From a virus, in the IMG/VR virus record IMGVR_UViG_3300030118_000146, positions 33,115 to 55,779 of that record: DNA of 22,665 bases; one strand, written 5' to 3'. The notes under the pieces are model-generated. The model was not told the origin of the DNA, searched no databases, and worked only from the letters and a program-made list of their open reading frames with translations. Made by a program: the position numbers and the translations under genes. Below are positions 3,756 to 17,389 of the stretch, one piece after another; positions within the stretch are counted from its first letter, which is position 1, and every line of letters begins with the position of its first letter.

Positions 3756-5798
3756 TCAGCTTACGTCTTTCGTGTCAAGCCAATTATCACCAATTTTTGC
3801 TTCTAATAACAGTGGTACATTAAATACGCATCCCCACCGTAATTGGATGAGTTCTGGTAAAACTCTGTTTGTTTCATTGATGACTTCAACTACACTCCTT
3901 TCTTCATCTGGATGTACATCAATGACGATACTATCATGCACCGTATTCACTATACATGATTTCATATCAGATAGCAACCTTTCTATGTGTAATAATGCCA
4001 CAGGCACGATATCTGCTGTAGCAAATGACTGCACAGGATAGTTCTTTATCTGTGTAAAGTTAGATACACGACCATGTACATTACGTACTACATCAGGGAA
4101 AGCAAACTCTCTACCTGATGGTGTGGTAATCTTACGTGTAGTCATAGCTTCTTTAGCCAATCGGGTATGCCAAAGCCCAATTCCTTGGTACTTTTCTGTA
4201 AAGTGTTCGTAGTACGCTGCTTCTTCAGGTGTGCGTCCGAACCCCGTTGCCCCGTAAAGGGGCGCAAAGGTGTGCGCTTTTGCATCCTGTCTATTCGTAG
4301 GCTGACCAGCTTCACTAATAACTTTAGCGGTGTAACTGTGTACATCAAACCCAGTAGATACTTCTTCAATTGCTACTCCATCTTGTGATAGGAATGCAGC
4401 CGCACGAAACTCTAGCTGTGCAAAGTCTGCTTCCATGATTTTACCACCATCCCACCGGGATACAAACACCCTCTTCACAGGGAATGTACCACCACGTGGC
4501 ATGTTTTGCATGTTAGGGTCAGCACCGGAGAACCTGCCAGTAGCAGTGCGATGCTGTAGCAAACGGACATGCAACTTACCGTCAGCTTTTGTGTGTGTAG
4601 ATATACCGTCAACAAACGATGATAGGTATGTCTCCACAGCAGATAGTCTACGTACCTTAGACAAAAACTCTACAGCAGTATCACGCTTGGCAGTACGTGC
4701 CTTGCCCTCAAGAAACTGTAGCTTGTCTTTGCTGGTAGTAAACCCATTAGCACTCATCCATTTAGGTGAGGGTGCTTTAAACTTCAACCCCGCCACAGCA
4801 GGAAGAGGATGAAGAGTATAACCATTCCCATTACAGGATACACAGCGGTTGCTTCTAGCGAAGAGAGTTCCATCTTTCTTTACCTTTCTTACCTGACCAG
4901 TGCCTTTACATACGCTACACTGTGTCGCTTTAGTTTTATGTAGACGTTCCGTATTAGCGTTTACTAGGCTACGAAAGTCTGCCTCATCCATATACGGGTC
5001 AACAGCATTGCCCCAATACTCTTTGTCCAGCACCTTGCGACTGTATATAACCCATGACAGTTGCTCTGGGCTGTTCAGGTTGATAGGTGTGTCACCCATC
5101 AGTTCTTTTACCATTACCTGTAACTCATGCTTCAATGTATCACGCTCCTGTTCGTACTCAGTACGCACATCATCCAGTGCCTTACGGTCAATGGTAAAGC
5201 CGTTCTGGTACATGCGAGACAGAGACACAGCCACCTGATTGGTAAGCTGTACGGTAGTCATTAGCCCTGAATCAGCAGGTGTATTGAGCCTGTACATCAG
5301 CTTGTCAGACAGTTGCTGCGTAGCATGTAGGTCAGCAGATAGATACTCACACAACTCATTGTAAGGAATGTCTCGTGTAGAGTAGCCTTTAGCATAGTAT
5401 TCCTTGAGTGTGTCCTGCTTCTTAGTATCCAACTCATAGCGTTCTGCACAAGCCTCAAGAGATAGTGGCTCTTTGATACCACGCTGTAATACATACTCAG
5501 CAAGCATCGTGTCAAACACAGGGCCATCATACTTGAAGCCTGACTCCCACAACCACAGCAAGTCATGTGCTGCGTTGTGCATGATAAGCACAGTCGCATT
5601 GTCCAAGAACCATTGCACACGTTCACGATAATCTTCTTGATTAGGAACATCTGCATGGTCAAATGGGAAATGCATCTCTACATCTTGGTCAGTCAATACA
5701 CCAATCATAGTCAGTGAGTTCTCTGGCTCAAATGGGTCCATGTGTATCTTACCATCACGCTTGGTGACGGTGTTCTCTACGTCTAATGTTACCTTCAT
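3756..5798 (-). CDS. Family A DNA polymerase with 3'-5' exonuclease and a DnaJ-type zinc insert, 680 aa
   Basis: The exonuclease motifs are DVE (6-8), HNAAHD (74-79) and YLSAD (152-156). Between exonuclease and polymerase lies a zinc insert with CSVCKGTG at 294-301 and CVSCNGNG at 319-326, two CxxCxGxG repeats as in the DnaJ central domain. Polymerase motif A is EADFAQLEFR (catalytic Asp458). Motif B is R503-x3-K507-x3-F511-x3-YG. Motif C is VHDS (Asp622). Phe511 occupies the site of E. coli Phe762, unlike the Tyr of T7. It is the replicative polymerase of the phage. The start overlaps the helicase stop as ATGA. The zinc insert points to the HMO-2011-type phage group. Confidence 0.96.
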   Translation of the reverse strand: MKVTLDVENTVTKRDGKIHMDPFEPENSLTMIGVLTDQDVEMHFPFDHADVPNQEDYRERVQWFLDNATVLIMHNAAHDLLWLWESGFKYDGPVFDTMLAEYVLQRGIKEPLSLEACAERYELDTKKQDTLKEYYAKGYSTRDIPYNELCEYLSADLHATQQLSDKLMYRLNTPADSGLMTTVQLTNQVAVSLSRMYQNGFTIDRKALDDVRTEYEQERDTLKHELQVMVKELMGDTPINLNSPEQLSWVIYSRKVLDKEYWGNAVDPYMDEADFRSLVNANTERLHKTKATQCSVCKGTGQVRKVKKDGTLFARSNRCVSCNGNGYTLHPLPAVAGLKFKAPSPKWMSANGFTTSKDKLQFLEGKARTAKRDTAVEFLSKVRRLSAVETYLSSFVDGISTHTKADGKLHVRLLQHRTATGRFSGADPNMQNMPRGGTFPVKRVFVSRWDGGKIMEADFAQLEFRAAAFLSQDGVAIEEVSTGFDVHSYTAKVISEAGQPTNRQDAKAHTFAPLYGATGFGRTPEEAAYYEHFTEKYQGIGLWHTRLAKEAMTTRKITTPSGREFAFPDVVRNVHGRVSNFTQIKNYPVQSFATADIVPVALLHIERLLSDMKSCIVNTVHDSIVIDVHPDEERSVVEVINETNRVLPELIQLRWGCVFNVPLLLEAKIGDNWLDTKDVS

Positions 5799-12791: not shown

Positions 12792-13175
12792 TTAAGCCAC
12801 CTTTTTTGCTTTGCCACGGCCTTGTCTAGCAAGGTCACGAAGATTGTTGATAGTTACACTGCCAATCTCTACAGTCACAGGCTTGTCTGTGTTCTTTCTA
12901 CGTACAGCCTTGCCCAATTCCTTGTGCATAGCGTCCAAGAAGATACCAGCAATAGCCTCTGTTGTGTACTGTAAGTAACCACCACAGTCAGCCTTTGCTT
13001 CACGAGCATACTTGAGCATGATGTTGTAGAAGTTGTAACGGCCTAGCTTCACGCCATGATACTGCTGATACAATGCCTCTACCTTAGACAGCTTATGCTC
13101 AATCTCTGGTGATGCAAGCACCTGTCCTGTCATACCTGTTGAACGCTGGTGAAATGTGATTGTTTGAATAGTCAT
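12792..13175 (-). CDS. Hypothetical basic protein, 127 aa
   Basis: The product starts MTIQTITFHQRSTGMTGQVL, has a helical middle (HKLSKVEALYQQYHGVKLGR) and ends in a Lys/Arg-rich tail DLARQGRGKAKKVA. AAAGGAG is well placed before the ATG. An AGTCCAACATTGGACT palindrome lies 24 bases upstream of the start codon, so it may be under control of its binding protein. I recognise no family; a DNA- or RNA-binding role is possible from the tail. Confidence 0.8.
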   Translation of the reverse strand: MTIQTITFHQRSTGMTGQVLASPEIEHKLSKVEALYQQYHGVKLGRYNFYNIMLKYAREAKADCGGYLQYTTEAIAGIFLDAMHKELGKAVRRKNTDKPVTVEIGSVTINNLRDLARQGRGKAKKVA

Positions 13176-13188
13176 AGTAATATCTCCT

Positions 13189-13623
13189 TTACTGTGTTAG
13201 TCCAACATTGGACTTGTTAGGGTTGCTTCTAATTGCCCACATACTAGGGCCGTTTGGCCCTTTACCTGCTGTGACAACGTAGGCATCTGTCACAGGTATC
13301 TCATCCTTTGCAGTCACAAAGCTGTCATACTTGTATGGATTGTATGTCACCTTCTCTGCACCTTTGAAAATGGTAGCAACACCATTATTCAAGCTGATAC
13401 GGCCTGTCACAAAGGCATGTACATTCTTTTTGCCCTCTCGCAGAACACGCTGTCTGCCACCTTGCCGGACAACAAACTTGGCATCAGCTATAGTGAAGCC
13501 TCTCATGTGTGTAACCACACGGCCTGTCTTGCAGTCCTGCACTGAATAGCACTTCTTGTGCAAGTTCCAATATACACGCACTCTCTGTGTGTAGCCGTCC
13601 TTATCCCATGTAAGTCTGTTCAT
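13189..13623 (-). CDS. Conserved phage protein of unknown function, 144 aa
   Basis: The N-terminal pattern QRVRVYWNLHKKCYSVQDCK and the stretch GGRQRVLREGKKNVHAFVTG, followed by VTYNPYKYDSFV, match a protein family common in phages of several kinds, all without known function. It looks beta-rich. Its last codons read Ser-Asn-Val-Gly-Leu across a copy of the 16-bp palindrome. The start overlaps the upstream stop as ATGA. Confidence 0.83.
   Translation of the reverse strand: MNRLTWDKDGYTQRVRVYWNLHKKCYSVQDCKTGRVVTHMRGFTIADAKFVVRQGGRQRVLREGKKNVHAFVTGRISLNNGVATIFKGAEKVTYNPYKYDSFVTAKDEIPVTDAYVVTAGKGPNGPSMWAIRSNPNKSNVGLTQ
13199..13214. promoter_or_regulatory. 16-bp palindrome copy 1, operator candidate
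   Basis: AGTCCAACATTGGACT, arms of 7 bases around a 2-base centre. It lies inside the last codons of the 144-aa gene and 24 bases upstream of the start of the 127-aa gene. It shares 21 bases (TTAGTCC...GGACTTGT) with copy 2. Confidence 0.75.
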
Positions 13624-13805
13624 AATACATTCTCCACTAAATATTTAGCCAATTCTCTTGCAGTCAGGTAGCCTACAGGCTCTTCCTGTCCATCAATCCA
13701 TACTTCACAGGTCTTACCTTTCTCGCCCATGATACCATCACCCTGCACAATAGACACCTGTCTACCGTCCTTTGTGACCAATAAAATCTGATTGTATTCA
13801 CGCAT
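13620..13805 (-). CDS. Hypothetical protein, 61 aa
   Basis: AGGAG stands 7 bases before the ATG at 13805, so I reject a GTG further upstream. The product is a small beta-rich protein: MREYNQILLVTKDGRQVSIV, then KTCEVWIDGQEEPVGYLTAR and a C-terminal helix. It overlaps the basic mini-protein upstream by 8 bases and the next gene as ATGA. Family unknown. Confidence 0.78.
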   Translation of the reverse strand: MREYNQILLVTKDGRQVSIVQGDGIMGEKGKTCEVWIDGQEEPVGYLTARELAKYLVENVL

Positions 13806-13908
13806 ACCATCTCTCCTGTGTTTCACGCTTTGCCTGTCGCATTACTTTGCGAGTACGCTTCCAATCATCACGCTTTGCTTTGCGTGGCTTAGTCTTTAGT
13901 GACTTCAT
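13798..13908 (-). CDS. Very small basic protein, 36 aa
   Basis: The frame encodes MKSLKTKPRKAKRDDWKRTR followed by KVMRQAKRETQERWYA: a strongly basic helix. It overlaps its neighbours by 20 and 8 bases and contains the ribosome site of the next gene. Its own ribosome site is weak (AAAAG). Such peptides could bind nucleic acid. It is too short for a firm call. Confidence 0.55.
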   Translation of the reverse strand: MKSLKTKPRKAKRDDWKRTRKVMRQAKRETQERWYA

Positions 13909-14041
13909 CTTTTCTAGCTTTATCTGCATTGTACTTGTCCTTTTTGCGATTGTACTTTTTCTTGTTAGGCACAGTCTGTGTAGCAGTCCTGCGTCTGTTC
14001 TGTGCCATGATACGAGCTACAGGATTTATACGTCTAATCAT
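13889..14041 (-). CDS. Small basic protein, 50 aa
   Basis: The product starts MIRRINPVARIMAQNRRRTA and continues TQTVPNKKKYNRKKDKYNAD; about a third of its residues are Lys or Arg. AAGGAG lies before the ATG at 14041. A palindrome copy sits 14 bases upstream and a TATACT box a little further, so a promoter with an operator probably starts here. It may bind nucleic acid; the family is not known to me. Confidence 0.72.
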   Translation of the reverse strand: MIRRINPVARIMAQNRRRTATQTVPNKKKYNRKKDKYNADKARKDEVTKD

Positions 14042-14054
14042 GTGTCAACTCCTT

Positions 14055-14070
14055 AGTCCAACATTGGACT
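14055..14070. promoter_or_regulatory. 16-bp palindrome copy 2, operator candidate
   Basis: AGTCCAACATTGGACT lies 14 bases before the start of the 50-aa basic protein. On the minus strand a TATACT box lies 6 bases upstream of it, so the site would cover the transcription start. A hairpin lies directly further upstream. Confidence 0.78.
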
Positions 14071-14077
14071 TGTCTAG

Positions 14078-14137
14078 TATACCTAAGTGATAAAACACTT
14101 TCATTAAACATTCAAGTGTTTTTTCACATAAGGTATA
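14078..14137. terminator. AT-rich hairpin between the GP88-like gene and the basic-protein gene
   Basis: Outer arms TATACCT (14078-14084) and AGGTATA (14131-14137) and inner arms AAAACACTT (14092-14100) and AAGTGTTTT (14114-14122) pair. Runs of T follow the inner stem on both strands, so it may end transcription from either side. It stands between the end of the 235-aa gene and the palindrome of the next one. Confidence 0.6.
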
Positions 14138-14147
14138 CATAAGAGGT

Positions 14148-14855
14148 TTAGCAGTCAATTACGAATCCTGACGTATCAGCTTTGGCTTTTTTGCCTTTGG
14201 CAATCAGACCAACAATAACACCTTTGGGGTCGAGAAAGCGCAAGTCGTCTTTGTCACCATCTACCACAGGCAAGCCCTTGAATGTTTCAGGTAGCTTGTC
14301 ACGGAATACGACTGCGGCATTGACACCTGTATCTCGCACAGCTTGCAACACCTGCTCTGCATAGTCAGGGTCAGCTTCACTGTAAGACAATGTGAGGTGA
14401 TAATTGGCTGGCAGTTTGGCATAGGCACGTTTGACAATTTTTGTGTAGTCATAAAACTGCACCTCTGGAAACTGCTCCATGATACCTGTTTTCTCATACT
14501 GAATATCACTAGTGCCATTCAGTCTAACGCATGGCTGGATGCCATTCTTGCGCTGTCTACGACTAAACACAGTGATGTCGTTGATGAGTGCATCCATGAA
14601 ACCAATACGGTCTGACAGATAGAACATAGTCTTACGTTCCCTGCCACGCTGTACAGACTGCATCTGACCACGCCCTGCACCTTTGAGGCATGGCTCTGCA
14701 CAGCCAGCCTTGTCAGCCATAGCACACAGATTATGCACCTTGCCACGGTACACAGTCTTGTATGGTTGCATGTACTTGATGGCTGTAACATACTCAGAGC
14801 CATCACCTTTGATTGTTTTGGCATTGTTGCCAGTGCCGATAAGATTGTAGGTCAT
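14148..14855 (-). CDS. GP88-like phage protein with cysteine motif, 235 aa
   Basis: The protein matches the phage GP88-like family (mycobacteriophage gene product 88): GTGNNAKTIKGDGSEYVTAI at the start, a Cys cluster LCAMADKAGCAEPCLKGAGR (Cys44, 52, 56), RERKTMFYLSDRIGFMDALI, then VRLNGTSDIQYE and FYDYTKIVKRAY, and a C-terminal GLPVVDGDKDDLRFLDPKGV. The cysteines could bind iron-sulphur or zinc; the function is not established. GGAG before ATG 14855 decides the start over an upstream ATG. The gene follows an 88-aa acidic protein with a 2-base gap and is followed by a hairpin. Confidence 0.86.
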   Translation of the reverse strand: MTYNLIGTGNNAKTIKGDGSEYVTAIKYMQPYKTVYRGKVHNLCAMADKAGCAEPCLKGAGRGQMQSVQRGRERKTMFYLSDRIGFMDALINDITVFSRRQRKNGIQPCVRLNGTSDIQYEKTGIMEQFPEVQFYDYTKIVKRAYAKLPANYHLTLSYSEADPDYAEQVLQAVRDTGVNAAVVFRDKLPETFKGLPVVDGDKDDLRFLDPKGVIVGLIAKGKKAKADTSGFVIDC

Positions 14856-14857
14856 GA

Positions 14858-15124
14858 TTATATCTCCCATGCGTCATCTAACCAACGCTGTGCGGTTGCC
14901 TCATCTGGACAGCCCACAGCCATTACACTTGCCACAGCACGTGCCTCTTCTAGAGCATCACGCTCGGCATCTTCCTCAGCCCATTGCTCCAGCTTGAGAA
15001 TTTCCTCACCCAATTGCTCGATAGTCCAATCATAAGCAAAACCTAATGACGGACGAATACCATGATACGCCTTGAACGCATCACTGTAAGCCTGACACAT
15101 ATCTTCATAGGTAGCAATTCTCAT
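14858..15124 (-). CDS. Hypothetical acidic helical protein, 88 aa
   Basis: An acidic, mostly helical protein: MRIATYEDMCQAYSDAFKAY, then EEILKLEQWAEEDAERDALE and ARAVASVMAVGCPDEATAQR. CGGAG lies 6 bases before the ATG. A palindrome copy sits 20 bases upstream and a hairpin beyond it, so a new transcript probably starts here. Acidic early phage proteins often act as DNA mimics or inhibitors, but nothing specific is seen. Confidence 0.78.
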   Translation of the reverse strand: MRIATYEDMCQAYSDAFKAYHGIRPSLGFAYDWTIEQLGEEILKLEQWAEEDAERDALEEARAVASVMAVGCPDEATAQRWLDDAWEI

Positions 15125-15143
15125 GTTTAACTCCGTTAATGTT

Positions 15144-15159
15144 AGTCCAATGTTGGACT
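15144..15159. promoter_or_regulatory. 16-bp palindrome copy 3, operator candidate
   Basis: The plus strand reads AGTCCAATGTTGGACT, the same palindrome in the opposite orientation. It lies 20 bases before the start of the 88-aa acidic protein, with an AT-rich hairpin next to it, the same layout as copy 2. Confidence 0.78.
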
Positions 15160-15166
15160 TAGTTAA

Positions 15167-15222
15167 GTGTTGTATAAGTAATATATACTTTCACTAAAGT
15201 ATCAGTATATATTACGTTACAC
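15167..15222. terminator. AT-rich hairpin after the 79-aa gene
   Basis: GTAATATATACT (15178-15189) and AGTATATATTAC (15204-15215) are perfect 12-bp arms around a 14-base loop, with weaker GTGT/ACAC pairing outside. It lies directly after the stop of the 79-aa gene and before palindrome copy 3. It may be a terminator or a melting site; there is no long T run. Confidence 0.5.
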
Positions 15223-15223
15223 A

Positions 15224-15463
15224 CTAAAGTAAACCCTTGTCGAGCAACTCCTGTTTCAGCACAAGCAAGGCTTGCATCTGTGCTTCACGCTTCAGCCTAG
15301 CGTCATAGTCACGCTTAGCGGCTTCAGCCTGACCTGTAACGTAACAACGGAACTCAGGCCGTGTCTCAGGCATCAGACCTCGACCATAAGCATGGTCAAA
15401 AGACTGCCAGCTTGAGCCTAAAGGCTTGTGCTTGCCCATCGGTATGTATTGTTTACGTGCCAT
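15224..15463 (-). CDS. Hypothetical protein, 79 aa
   Basis: The basic N-terminal part MARKQYIPMGKHKPLGSSWQ is followed by SFDHAYGRGLMPETRPEFRC and a C-terminal helix EAAKRDYDARLKREAQMQAL. The start shares its first base with the stop of the membrane-protein gene (TAATG). An AT-rich hairpin lies just after the stop. I do not recognise it. Confidence 0.77.
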   Translation of the reverse strand: MARKQYIPMGKHKPLGSSWQSFDHAYGRGLMPETRPEFRCYVTGQAEAAKRDYDARLKREAQMQALLVLKQELLDKGLL

Positions 15464-15642
15464 TATTTCACCTCATCACTCAAATGTATTCCATACATTA
15501 GCCCTGCAAAACCGCAAAGCATACCTATCACAGAGCCTTCCGGCTCACCTGTTACAGCGAATATCAACGATAAGCAAATTAGGCTAATGCCTAAGCCAAA
15601 GGTGATGCAAGCTAACAGGATTTTTAATACTTGTATTAACAT
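15463..15642 (-). CDS. Small two-span membrane protein, 59 aa
   Basis: Two hydrophobic segments are clear: IQVLKILLACITFGLGISLI running on into CLSLIFAV, and VIGMLCGFAGLMYGI, separated by TGEPEGS. GGGAG stands 8 bases before ATG 15642; a TTG further up would include the ribosome site and is rejected. It probably sits in the inner membrane. A long hairpin lies directly upstream of its ribosome site and could control its translation. Confidence 0.77.
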   Translation of the reverse strand: MLIQVLKILLACITFGLGISLICLSLIFAVTGEPEGSVIGMLCGFAGLMYGIHLSDEVK

Positions 15643-15654
15643 TTTGATTACTCC

Positions 15655-15689
15655 CAAAAGGTGACTGTAGCTTATGCTACAGCCTTTTG
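15655..15689 (-). promoter_or_regulatory. Long hairpin across the stop codon of the 191-aa gene
   Basis: CAAAAGG (15655-15661) pairs with CCTTTTG (15683-15689) and CTGTAGC (15665-15671) with GCTACAG (15676-15682), a 14-bp stem with one 3-base bulge and a 4-base loop holding the stop codon. It ends just before the GGGAG ribosome site of the membrane-protein gene. It may stabilise or cut the mRNA or control translation. Confidence 0.6.
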
Positions 15690-16247
15690 ATTTGTGTTGT
15701 CAACTTCTGATTGCAGAAGTTCTAATACTTTATCAACAGCAATGTGATGCTTCCCACACTGTTCCATAACCATGATAACAATGTCAAGTTCATTGACTGA
15801 CTGCTCTTGAGTCTCTGACTCAGTTGGTCCAACATTGGACTCTGTATCAGCCTCTGGCTGTTCATCAGCTTTAGCTGACTTATCAGCTTTCCGCATAGCT
15901 GACTGTAAAGCAGTCAGTGATGTGAAGCCTTTCTTTGAGGCTTGGATGAAGCTACGGCAAGCTGTTTCGTTTTCAACAAACCACAGAGCTTCGCTTCTGC
16001 GGCGTTTGTCGATGGAATGAATGTGGCACTCCTTCAGTCTAGCTGAAGAGATACGGCCAGCATCGCTTTCAGCCTTTAGCTTTAGCATCAGCTTTCCAAG
16101 CCGTGTGTCAAAGCCATCAGCCTTTGTAGCTTTGGTAAACCTCTTCTTATCTGCAGAGCAGATGTTTTTCCACAATCCAGCAAGGGCTTCGCCTTCAGCT
16201 TCCAGAGTGTTGACAACAGCGATTGCAGTGGTTTTTTGGTTGGTCAT
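15672..16247 (-). CDS. Hypothetical early protein, 191 aa, first gene of the minus strand
   Basis: The product starts MTNQKTTAIAVVNTLEAEGE and has a helical, basic first part (CSADKKRFTKATKADGFDTR, LECHIHSIDKRRRSE-like stretch around 80-95). An acidic linker follows (DEQPEADTESNVGPTESETQ) and a last helix IAVDKVLELLQSEVDN. The linker carries a palindrome copy at 15826-15841. AGGAG lies 7 bases before ATG 16247, so I prefer it to an ATG at 16262. As first gene next to the divergent control region, with a structured basic part, it may be a DNA-binding regulator; this is inference. Confidence 0.78.
   Translation of the reverse strand: MTNQKTTAIAVVNTLEAEGEALAGLWKNICSADKKRFTKATKADGFDTRLGKLMLKLKAESDAGRISSARLKECHIHSIDKRRRSEALWFVENETACRSFIQASKKGFTSLTALQSAMRKADKSAKADEQPEADTESNVGPTESETQEQSVNELDIVIMVMEQCGKHHIAVDKVLELLQSEVDNTNQKAVA
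15826..15841. promoter_or_regulatory. 16-bp palindrome copy 4, inside a reading frame
   Basis: GGTCCAACATTGGACT lies within the 191-aa gene, where it encodes Ser-Asn-Val-Gly-Pro in the acidic linker. It differs from the consensus only at the first base. Confidence 0.7.
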
Positions 16248-16267
16248 TTTACTTCTCCTCATTTGAA

Positions 16268-16328
16268 GTGTTACTAATAAAAAATATCTCTCTCACCCTA
16301 AAGGGAGAGATATTATTTTATGTAACAC
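16268..16328 (-). terminator. Terminator-like hairpin in front of the first minus-strand gene
   Basis: Arms AATATCTCTC (16283-16292) and GAGAGATATT (16305-16314) pair perfectly, and GTGTTAC (16268-16274) pairs with GTAACAC (16322-16328) outside. On the minus strand the stem is followed by a T run. It either stops transcripts coming from the right or acts as an attenuator in the leader of the 191-aa gene. Confidence 0.65.
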
Positions 16329-16533
16329 GTAACAAATGAGAGAGTATTTGGGGTCGGCTTTCCGTGATGCGTCATGATGTGATGTGCCATCCTCTGCGCT
16401 TGCCGTTTCGTGGGTGACTGCAAAAATATATTTCATATATATTTTGAAGTTGGTGCGTGAAACTCGCATGTCACATGACGAGGCCAGTTTTGCTGTAGCG
16501 GAACAGATGGGGAACAGCTCTGCTGTTACAGGT

Positions 16534-16549
16534 AGTCCAACATTGGACC
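16534..16549. promoter_or_regulatory. 16-bp palindrome copy 5, in the divergent region
   Basis: AGTCCAACATTGGACC, one base off the consensus at the last position, lies about 290 bases upstream of the first minus-strand gene and about 350 bases upstream of the rightward promoter candidates. Confidence 0.7.
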
Positions 16550-16725
16550 TGACCATCACCGAAGGTGGGTGGTGTTTTGTGCATCGGCATTGCAAAGCAA
16601 TGGTGATTCAGAAACCCTGACCATCACATCATTCCTTCAGAATGGCAACTGATAACATAACAGTTGGCACAACTGAGGTGAAACACAGCATCTATTACAT
16701 CTTAGGATGTAGAGACACATCATCT

Positions 16726-16820
16726 AGTGGCTGACTGCCGCTGACTGCGCATCATATGCCTTGCTTCACGCATCATGCGCACGGTCAGAGAGGCCACCGG
16801 GCATGCGCCACCCCCCGGTG
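16726..16820. repeat. GC-rich inverted and direct repeats
   Basis: GCTGACTGC occurs twice, at 16730-16738 and 16740-16748. Nested arms GTGGC/GCCAC (16727, 16793) and GCGCAT/ATGCGC (16747, 16775) can fold, and CACCGGG (16795-16801) pairs with CCCGGTG (16814-16820). The stretch is clearly richer in G+C than its surroundings. It could be part of a structured RNA, an origin or an attachment region. Confidence 0.55.
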
Positions 16821-16883
16821 CGCTAGTTATATGTACATACAAATACACAGATTAGGTAAATTCACTGTTAACCACAGGAGCAA

Positions 16884-16912
16884 CTGACACTATTTATATT
16901 GCCTAGTATATA
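16884..16912 (+). promoter_or_regulatory. Second rightward promoter candidate
   Basis: CTGACA at 16884-16889, a 17-base spacer and TATATA at 16907-16912 form a good sigma70-type match about 110 bases upstream of the consensus promoter. Its -10 box lies within the palindrome at 16900-16916, so a protein bound there would block it. Confidence 0.5.
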
Positions 16913-16916
16913 GGCA
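16900..16916. promoter_or_regulatory. Palindrome TGCCTA-N5-TAGGCA, operator candidate
   Basis: Perfect 6-bp arms separated by GTATA, overlapping the -10 box of the upstream promoter candidate. A third half-site, TGCCTA, lies at 16930-16935. This looks like a binding site for a dimeric repressor. Confidence 0.5.
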
Positions 16917-16994
16917 GATACATATATTGTGCCTATTTTTTGTGCAGTTCTATAATTAATGTAAATTATTTTGAGTCGCATTGCATTTTAGGGG

Positions 16995-17023
16995 TTGACA
17001 CTTATCTGCATATCTGGTATAAT
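16995..17023 (+). promoter_or_regulatory. Consensus sigma70 promoter for the plus-strand genes
   Basis: TTGACA at 16995-17000 is followed by exactly 17 bases and TATAAT at 17018-17023, with TGG directly before the -10 box (extended -10). Both hexamers are perfect. The start point should be near 17030, leaving a leader of about 138 bases before the TTG start codon at 17168. It implies transcription of the rightward block by host RNA polymerase. Confidence 0.9.
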
Positions 17024-17167: not shown

Positions 17168-17389
17168 TTGACAAAATCTAAAAAATCAGTAAAACTATAC
17201 ACAGACAATGTACTTGATGCATTCTATGAAGCTATACGTACCAACTCATTAGACCGCTTACATATCCCTCACAGTGATGTCTTTTACGTGCGTCAGGCAG
17301 TAGAAGCACACTATGGGCGTTCATTTACATTAAAGAATGTAGAAGATGCCATGAGAGCAGAGGGGTGGAAAGAACCAAAGGAACAATGA
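17168..17389 (+). CDS. Small protein with TTG start, 73 aa, first plus-strand gene
   Basis: The frame has no ATG or GTG before residue 60, so TTG at 17168 is the likely start, with AGGA 8 bases upstream. The product reads MTKSKKSVKLYTDNVLDAFY, then EAIRTNSLDRLHIPHSDVFY and VRQAVEAHYGRSFTLKNVED, ending AMRAEGWKEPKEQ. I recall similar proteins in marine phages; it looks helical with a winged-helix-like end, but the function is unknown. The stop overlaps the next start as ATGA. Confidence 0.78.
   Translation: MTKSKKSVKLYTDNVLDAFYEAIRTNSLDRLHIPHSDVFYVRQAVEAHYGRSFTLKNVEDAMRAEGWKEPKEQ

Follow-up and report, generated by a model that had tools for sequence, protein, structure and literature searches.

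Five copies of a 16 bp palindrome in the leftward early region of an HMO-2011-type phage are probably operators of a regulator encoded by the phage itself, a 191-amino-acid (aa) protein here designated p191, which would most likely act by repressing early genes. The stretch analyzed (the window) has 22,665 nucleotides (nt) and corresponds to bases 33115–55779 of the 55,779-base virus record IMGVR_UViG_3300030118_000146; positions given below are those of the window. The named relatives nearest to this phage are Puniceispirillum phage HMO-2011 and Roseobacter phages CRP-1 and CRP-345. p191 and its set of sites are found in scores of related ocean phages, in which protein and sites vary together. 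The palindromes and the proposed regulator are located as follows.

13199–13214: candidate operator copy 1, AGTCCAACATTGGACT; 23 nt 5' of the ATG of a 127-aa gene, overlapping the end of an L5-gp82-like gene
14055–14070: candidate operator copy 2, AGTCCAACATTGGACT; begins 5 bp past a –10-like TATACT, 13 nt 5' of the ATG of a 50-aa gene
15144–15159: candidate operator copy 3, AGTCCAATGTTGGACT on the plus strand; 19 nt 5' of the ATG of an 88-aa gene, preceded by a conserved promoter-like element
15826–15841: candidate operator copy 4, GGTCCAACATTGGACT; within the p191 coding sequence, where it is translated as S-N-V-G in a part of the protein that is disordered in the model
16534–16549: candidate operator copy 5, AGTCCAACATTGGACC; non-coding, with the start of p191 287 nt farther downstream
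15672–16247, minus strand: p191, the putative regulator; begins with MTNQ (16247) after a GGAG and has 191 aa; HMO-2011 gp74 and CRP-1 gp01 are homologues
15867–15917, minus strand: DNA for p191 residues 111–127, the proposed recognition helix; T112, S116, and R119 share one face

A first-pass annotation of the window had listed copies at 13199, 14055, 15144, 15826, and 16534, in either orientation and with at most one base changed, and no other full copy. All five were confirmed at these places, and a scan of the full 55,779-base record with up to two mismatches returned the same five only. With up to three mismatches allowed, the window again yielded just these five places (10 strand matches), vs. 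0.23 expected from dinucleotide shuffles, and none of 100 shuffles reached the observed count. The core sequence GTCCAA-NN-TTGGAC has five perfect matches in the genome and none with one or two mismatches; at three mismatches there are 15, vs. 18.5 in shuffled sequence, which is the chance level. Nor are the copies scattered over the genome, an outcome named beforehand as speaking against a regulatory set: they span 3.35 kb upstream of the replication genes (P = 6e-5 that five random genome positions fit inside 3,351 bp), as single copies spaced 0.7–1.1 kb apart.

Association of p191 with the palindromes

Relatives were gathered by a pattern scan of IMG/VR and by searching with the gp88-like gene, which was used so that selection of loci would not depend on the motif. 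Many of the contigs obtained hold between three and eight GTCC-N6-GGAC palindromes. The 42 gp88-chosen loci that span the region fall into two groups: 12 have p191 together with three or more sites, 30 have neither, and none is discordant (Fisher P = 9e-11, in which independence is overstated because near-identical loci are included). All 50 p191 homologues detected by hidden Markov model are in palindrome-bearing loci, and a palindrome is present in each of 80 viral loci fetched by p191 (the best 80 of 199 p191 relatives). Loci from different scans overlap; L042, L115, and L201, for example, are one contig. Among isolates, the first 50 kb of HMO-2011, CRP-1, and CRP-345 contain both p191 and palindromes, and those of CRP-2, CRP-3, CRP-207, and CRP-603 contain neither. 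The link is one-to-one, and of the genes tested near the sites, p191 alone tracks palindrome presence. The 191-aa protein was already one of the candidates put forward in the first-pass annotation, and it gains support from this co-occurrence, from its placement among the sites with one in its own gene, and from the covariation described next. A 73-aa divergent gene (17168–17389) was also considered as the regulator and rejected, since it is equally present in relatives that have no palindromes.

Among the relatives there are two main operator types, GTCCAA (A-type) and GTCCGA (G-type), with position 6 altered in both halves together; the core is symmetric in both halves in nearly all of 226 sites. 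HMO-2011 has AGTCCG-N4-CGGACT at homologous places, and CRP-345 has GTCCAA-NN-TTGGAC. When an alignment of 84 p191 proteins was scored for information on operator type, the highest mutual information was found at columns 112 and 116, which are separated by a single turn of modelled helix 111–127. (Column 138, Asn138/Asp138, had a score equal to that of 116 but was discarded; the operator copy inside p191 includes this codon, which accounts for the high value.) Every one of the 19 G-type sets is paired with K116 and with either S or K at residue 112. T112 accompanies 57 of 60 A-type sets; the combination S112 and R116 occurs with mixed sets or, in three cases, with A-type sets. One clade (L227, L228, L236–L240) has GTCCAA and GTCCGA sites side by side and a p191 with S112/R116, and is perhaps an intermediate of relaxed specificity.

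In a tree built without the columns just discussed, operator type changes 17 times. Strongly supported branches give seven independent pairs with no residue change in the wrong direction, alone too few for P < 0.05. Eight close A/G pairs differ at residue 112 in six cases and at 116 in seven, vs. none and one of eight identity-matched A/A pairs; identity outside the excluded columns is 91% for L280/L270 and 88% for L276/L260. This covariation is the strongest evidence that p191 itself would read the palindrome, and together with the symmetry of the sites it implies symmetric reading by one helix.

The first-pass annotation had suggested a dimeric helix-turn-helix protein. That description is only partly shown. 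Symmetric reading fits its first part; the fold of the p191 model matches that of no solved DNA-binding protein, and the helix-turn-helix is unconfirmed because the model has no significant fold match in PDB. The model is all-helical (predicted local distance difference test score 80), and a helix-turn-helix assignment would draw on the model and the covariation. By sequence, a PDB profile search with p191, taken to E = 10, returned no repressor, Pfam and PHROGs gave chance matches only, and no homologues were found in plasmids. In a viral structure library the sole significant match was S4S2E1 (205 aa, 29% identity), whose length fits HMO-2011 gp74.

Placement of the sites and a possible mode of action

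Copies 1–3 were initially placed 14–24 bases before start codons; the distances to ATG measured in the sense of transcription are 23, 13, and 19 nt. The genes they precede, and two promoter-like elements, are the following.

12792–13175, minus strand: 127-aa gene after copy 1, homologue of HMO-2011 gp03
13889–14041, minus strand: 50-aa gene after copy 2, encoding a basic protein
14858–15124, minus strand: 88-aa gene after copy 3
14076–14104, minus strand: promoter-like ATGAAA-17-TATACT immediately upstream of copy 2; 9/12 consensus matches, kept in relatives
15166–15209, minus strand: TATACTGATACTTTAGTGAAAGTATA followed by ATTACTTATACAACACT, a conserved promoter-like element ahead of copy 3; common to relatives, and a promoter by inference, the match to the sigma-70 consensus being weak

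The placement is conserved. Copies had been predicted to stay upstream of the same genes. In relatives, all 42 cases of the 127-aa gene have a site no more than 60 nt upstream; for the 50-aa gene this holds in 32 of 46, and for the 88-aa gene in 29 of 36. No site precedes a rightward gene. The 232 non-redundant sites in p191-bearing loci comprise 44 upstream of p191, most of them 110–330 nt from it; 36 within the gene, mostly at nt 366–546; and 152 downstream, of which 123 have a ribosome-binding sequence and a start codon within 45 nt (30% for random positions). An additional palindrome is situated within the integrase gene of both CRP-1 (L196, at 6868) and CRP-345 (L007, at 7079); a later gene of CRP-345 contains another, at 14469.

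These positions suggest how p191 might act. A homodimer would read the two symmetric AGTCCAA half-sites through helix 111–127, with residues 112 and 116 contacting base pair 6 in each. Copies 2 and 3 are about at the presumed transcription start; since copy 2 begins 5 bp after TATACT, a dimer at this copy would lie across the start site, and a block to initiation of the early transcripts is the simplest reading. Copies 1, 4, and 5 have no adjacent promoter, and there bound p191 would most likely obstruct RNA polymerase elongating through the early operon. Because copies lie within and upstream of p191, its own transcript would be among those obstructed, making the gene autoregulatory. The initial proposal, operators controlling several early transcripts, is supported but has to be widened: with a recognizable promoter at only two of the five copies, the set would combine promoter operators with road-block sites inside the operon.

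The likeliest role would be to keep lytic early genes off in a prophage, with immunity against phages that carry matching sites. A tyrosine integrase is encoded in 17 of the 18 p191 loci with at least 8.5 kb of downstream sequence, which favors a lysogeny repressor over a purely lytic timing regulator; a lysogeny and immunity role for p191 is plausible.

Several further features of the region may be recorded. Among the palindromes, on the minus strand, are homologues of mycobacteriophage L5 gp82 (PF25735; 13189–13623) and GP88 (PF17338; 14148–14870). Upstream of copies 2 and 3 (14071–14125 and 15160–15215, minus strand), and at many sites in relatives (L005, L021, L139, and others), a conserved promoter-like element has an inverted repeat (ACACTT..AAGTGT, TATACT..AGTATA, TACATACT..AGTATGTA) around TTAGTGAAAG, which is followed by ACTTAGATATACTA. 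The stems of the repeat vary on both sides, and a second regulator might bind the element in the –35 region. Some 700 nt between the divergent units (16263–16990) contain copy 5 and no convincing gene; within them, a 12-pair stem with a T-rich tail (16283–16314, plus strand) has no Rfam match, and Rfam and tRNA scans of the window were empty. Just past these 700 nt, a perfect sigma-70 consensus promoter with a TG extension (TTGACA-17-TATAAT; 16995–17023, plus strand) reads rightward into the 73-aa gene and those that follow it.

Other roles for p191 and the palindromes

A number of observations weigh against the scheme proposed above. The p191 gene is the first of the early operon, an odd though not unique position for a lysogeny repressor; a pattern-based scan of bacterial genomes found no p191 relative, and hence no prophage; the Foldseek search of PDB gave no significant match for the p191 model, whole or N-domain; related phages with an integrase have no p191 and so must be regulated otherwise; and the loci compared are partly redundant and related by descent. 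A part in early-to-late timing fits as well. In the most serious alternative, p191 would be a Cro-like regulator of lytic growth, made first and, when it has become abundant enough, lowering all early leftward transcripts including its own. Its position at the head of the leftward early operon, the sites within and upstream of it, and the outcome of the prophage scan are points in favor. The mechanism at the DNA would be the same, only the stage being different. The integrase in nearly all p191 loci with enough flank, and in every p191 isolate, speaks against a Cro-like role, which is possible but less likely than not.

At the RNA level, the palindromes could form hairpins in early mRNA leaders, affecting translation or mRNA stability, with p191 as an RNA-binding protein. 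Sites lie ~20 nt before start codons in the transcript sense, often without a promoter, and they are biased in orientation relative to transcription: the center is TG in 71 and CA in 33 downstream sites, and the outer bases are A..C in 69 vs. G..T in 9, although sites within one phage are not independent and descent within phages may explain part of the bias. The pattern of tolerated changes, however, fits recognition of duplex DNA. Pair 6–11 is A-T in 157 cases and G-C in 62, but G-U in only two, and at the outer pair A.C and C.A (93) exceed G.U and U.G (18), the opposite of a selected RNA stem; the p191 coding sequence, too, contains sites well inside it. Hairpins are rejected as the main explanation on these grounds, and are unlikely.

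The sign of regulation is not given by co-occurrence or covariation, and p191 could conceivably activate early genes instead of repressing them. Copies 2 and 3, however, are downstream of a –10-like element, at the start site itself, a position from which a bound protein will as a rule prevent transcription, and the other three have no recognizable promoter beside them, making activation quite improbable. Least probable of all is a partition or replication element (centromere- or iteron-like) of a plasmid-like prophage with p191 as a ParB- or initiator-like protein: ParB sites are likewise 16 bp palindromes, and here several occur over a few kb adjoining a large non-coding region, but the idea was rejected since neither the window proteins scanned nor the p191 family gave a ParA-, ParB-, or initiator-like match, the sites are fixed before the starts of the same genes, and an integrase is present.

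With p191 taken as a repressor acting at DNA, a more far-reaching combination can be entertained, tentatively and with less than even confidence: that it is the first of a new family of phage immunity repressors whose DNA-binding fold has yet to be described, that the promoter-less palindromes are symmetric “stoperators” halting polymerase across the early operon, and that immunity groups and replacement of whole modules follow. If so, a two-residue code (T112 with A or S at 116, vs. S or K at 112 with K at 116), switched many times, would split HMO-2011-type phages into immunity groups, and unrelated regulator-operator modules would substitute for one another at the same locus.

Two sets of p191-less relatives have palindromes of their own. 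L121 (4885–5502), and also L122, L123, L125, and L129, encode an unrelated 206-aa protein at the locus of p191, and relatives of this type have 9–10 copies of TGTCTGA-N3-TCAGACA before genes (4568–11262 in L121), one of them overlapping the start of the integrase frame; protein and repeats are an apparent replacement regulator-operator module. L131 has three closely spaced copies of GTCAA-N4-TTGAC (5211–5270) near the 73-aa gene, resembling a tandem operator, with similar sites in L133, L183, L184, and L186.

HMO-2011-type phages are reported to be among the dominant viral groups of the ocean (PMC9038755), and for CRP-3, which has no p191, integration into the host genome has been reported (PMC6918029). 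Many phages of this type carry an integrase; neither “repressor” nor “palindrom” occurs in the text of the open-licence papers on HMO-2011-type phages that were searched (PMC9038755, PMC6918029). For a large subset of these phages, a master regulator and the sites to which it would bind can now be proposed. Early promoters and immunity groups should become predictable from sequence alone, the repeated joint switching of an operator base and protein residues provides a natural experiment, and formation of immune lysogens by HMO-2011-type phages is made directly testable.

Comparison with known phage regulators

The phage λ N/boxB system shares with this one short repeats, capable of forming hairpins, in early transcripts beside coding starts. 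Unlike boxB, the palindromes show almost no G-U at the covarying pair and tolerate A.C mismatches outside it, as fits duplex DNA.

Several points are shared with λ cI/Cro, and p191 would work in the manner of a dimeric repressor that binds palindromes, its operators being dispersed. The operators are symmetric, and their half-sites are separated by roughly one turn of the DNA; specificity would depend on a small number of residues in a single helix; and a modelled N-terminal helical domain is followed by a linker and C-terminal helices. As in cI/Cro-type systems, a symmetric candidate operator overlaps a putative early promoter at copy 2, an arrangement repeated in relatives, and the phage encodes a putative regulator in which the proposed recognition residues vary in step with the operator. 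The differences are that the operators are dispersed and single here, rather than grouped in threes at a divergent promoter, that the p191 gene is within the early operon, and that there is no match in sequence or fold.

Cluster A mycobacteriophages have an immunity repressor acting with stoperators, as described for L5 gp71 and for TipsytheTRex (PMC6550527, PMC9283540). The L5 stoperators are oriented relative to transcription (PMC6550527) and obstruct elongating polymerase (PMC9283540). In common with these, the present system has a putative temperate-phage regulator of comparable size, several sites dispersed within operons and genes, an apparent orientation bias relative to transcription that descent within phages may partly explain, and a site set drifting along with the proposed repressor; gp82- and gp88-like genes are a further link to L5. 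In contrast, the sites are symmetric 16 bp palindromes rather than asymmetric 13 bp sequences bound by a monomer, there are five copies in 3.4 kb rather than up to ~30 genome-wide, and p191 has no detectable sequence link to solved repressors or to a Pfam or PHROG family. By the tests made, the p191 system is outside the L5 repressor family; its layout resembles that of L5.

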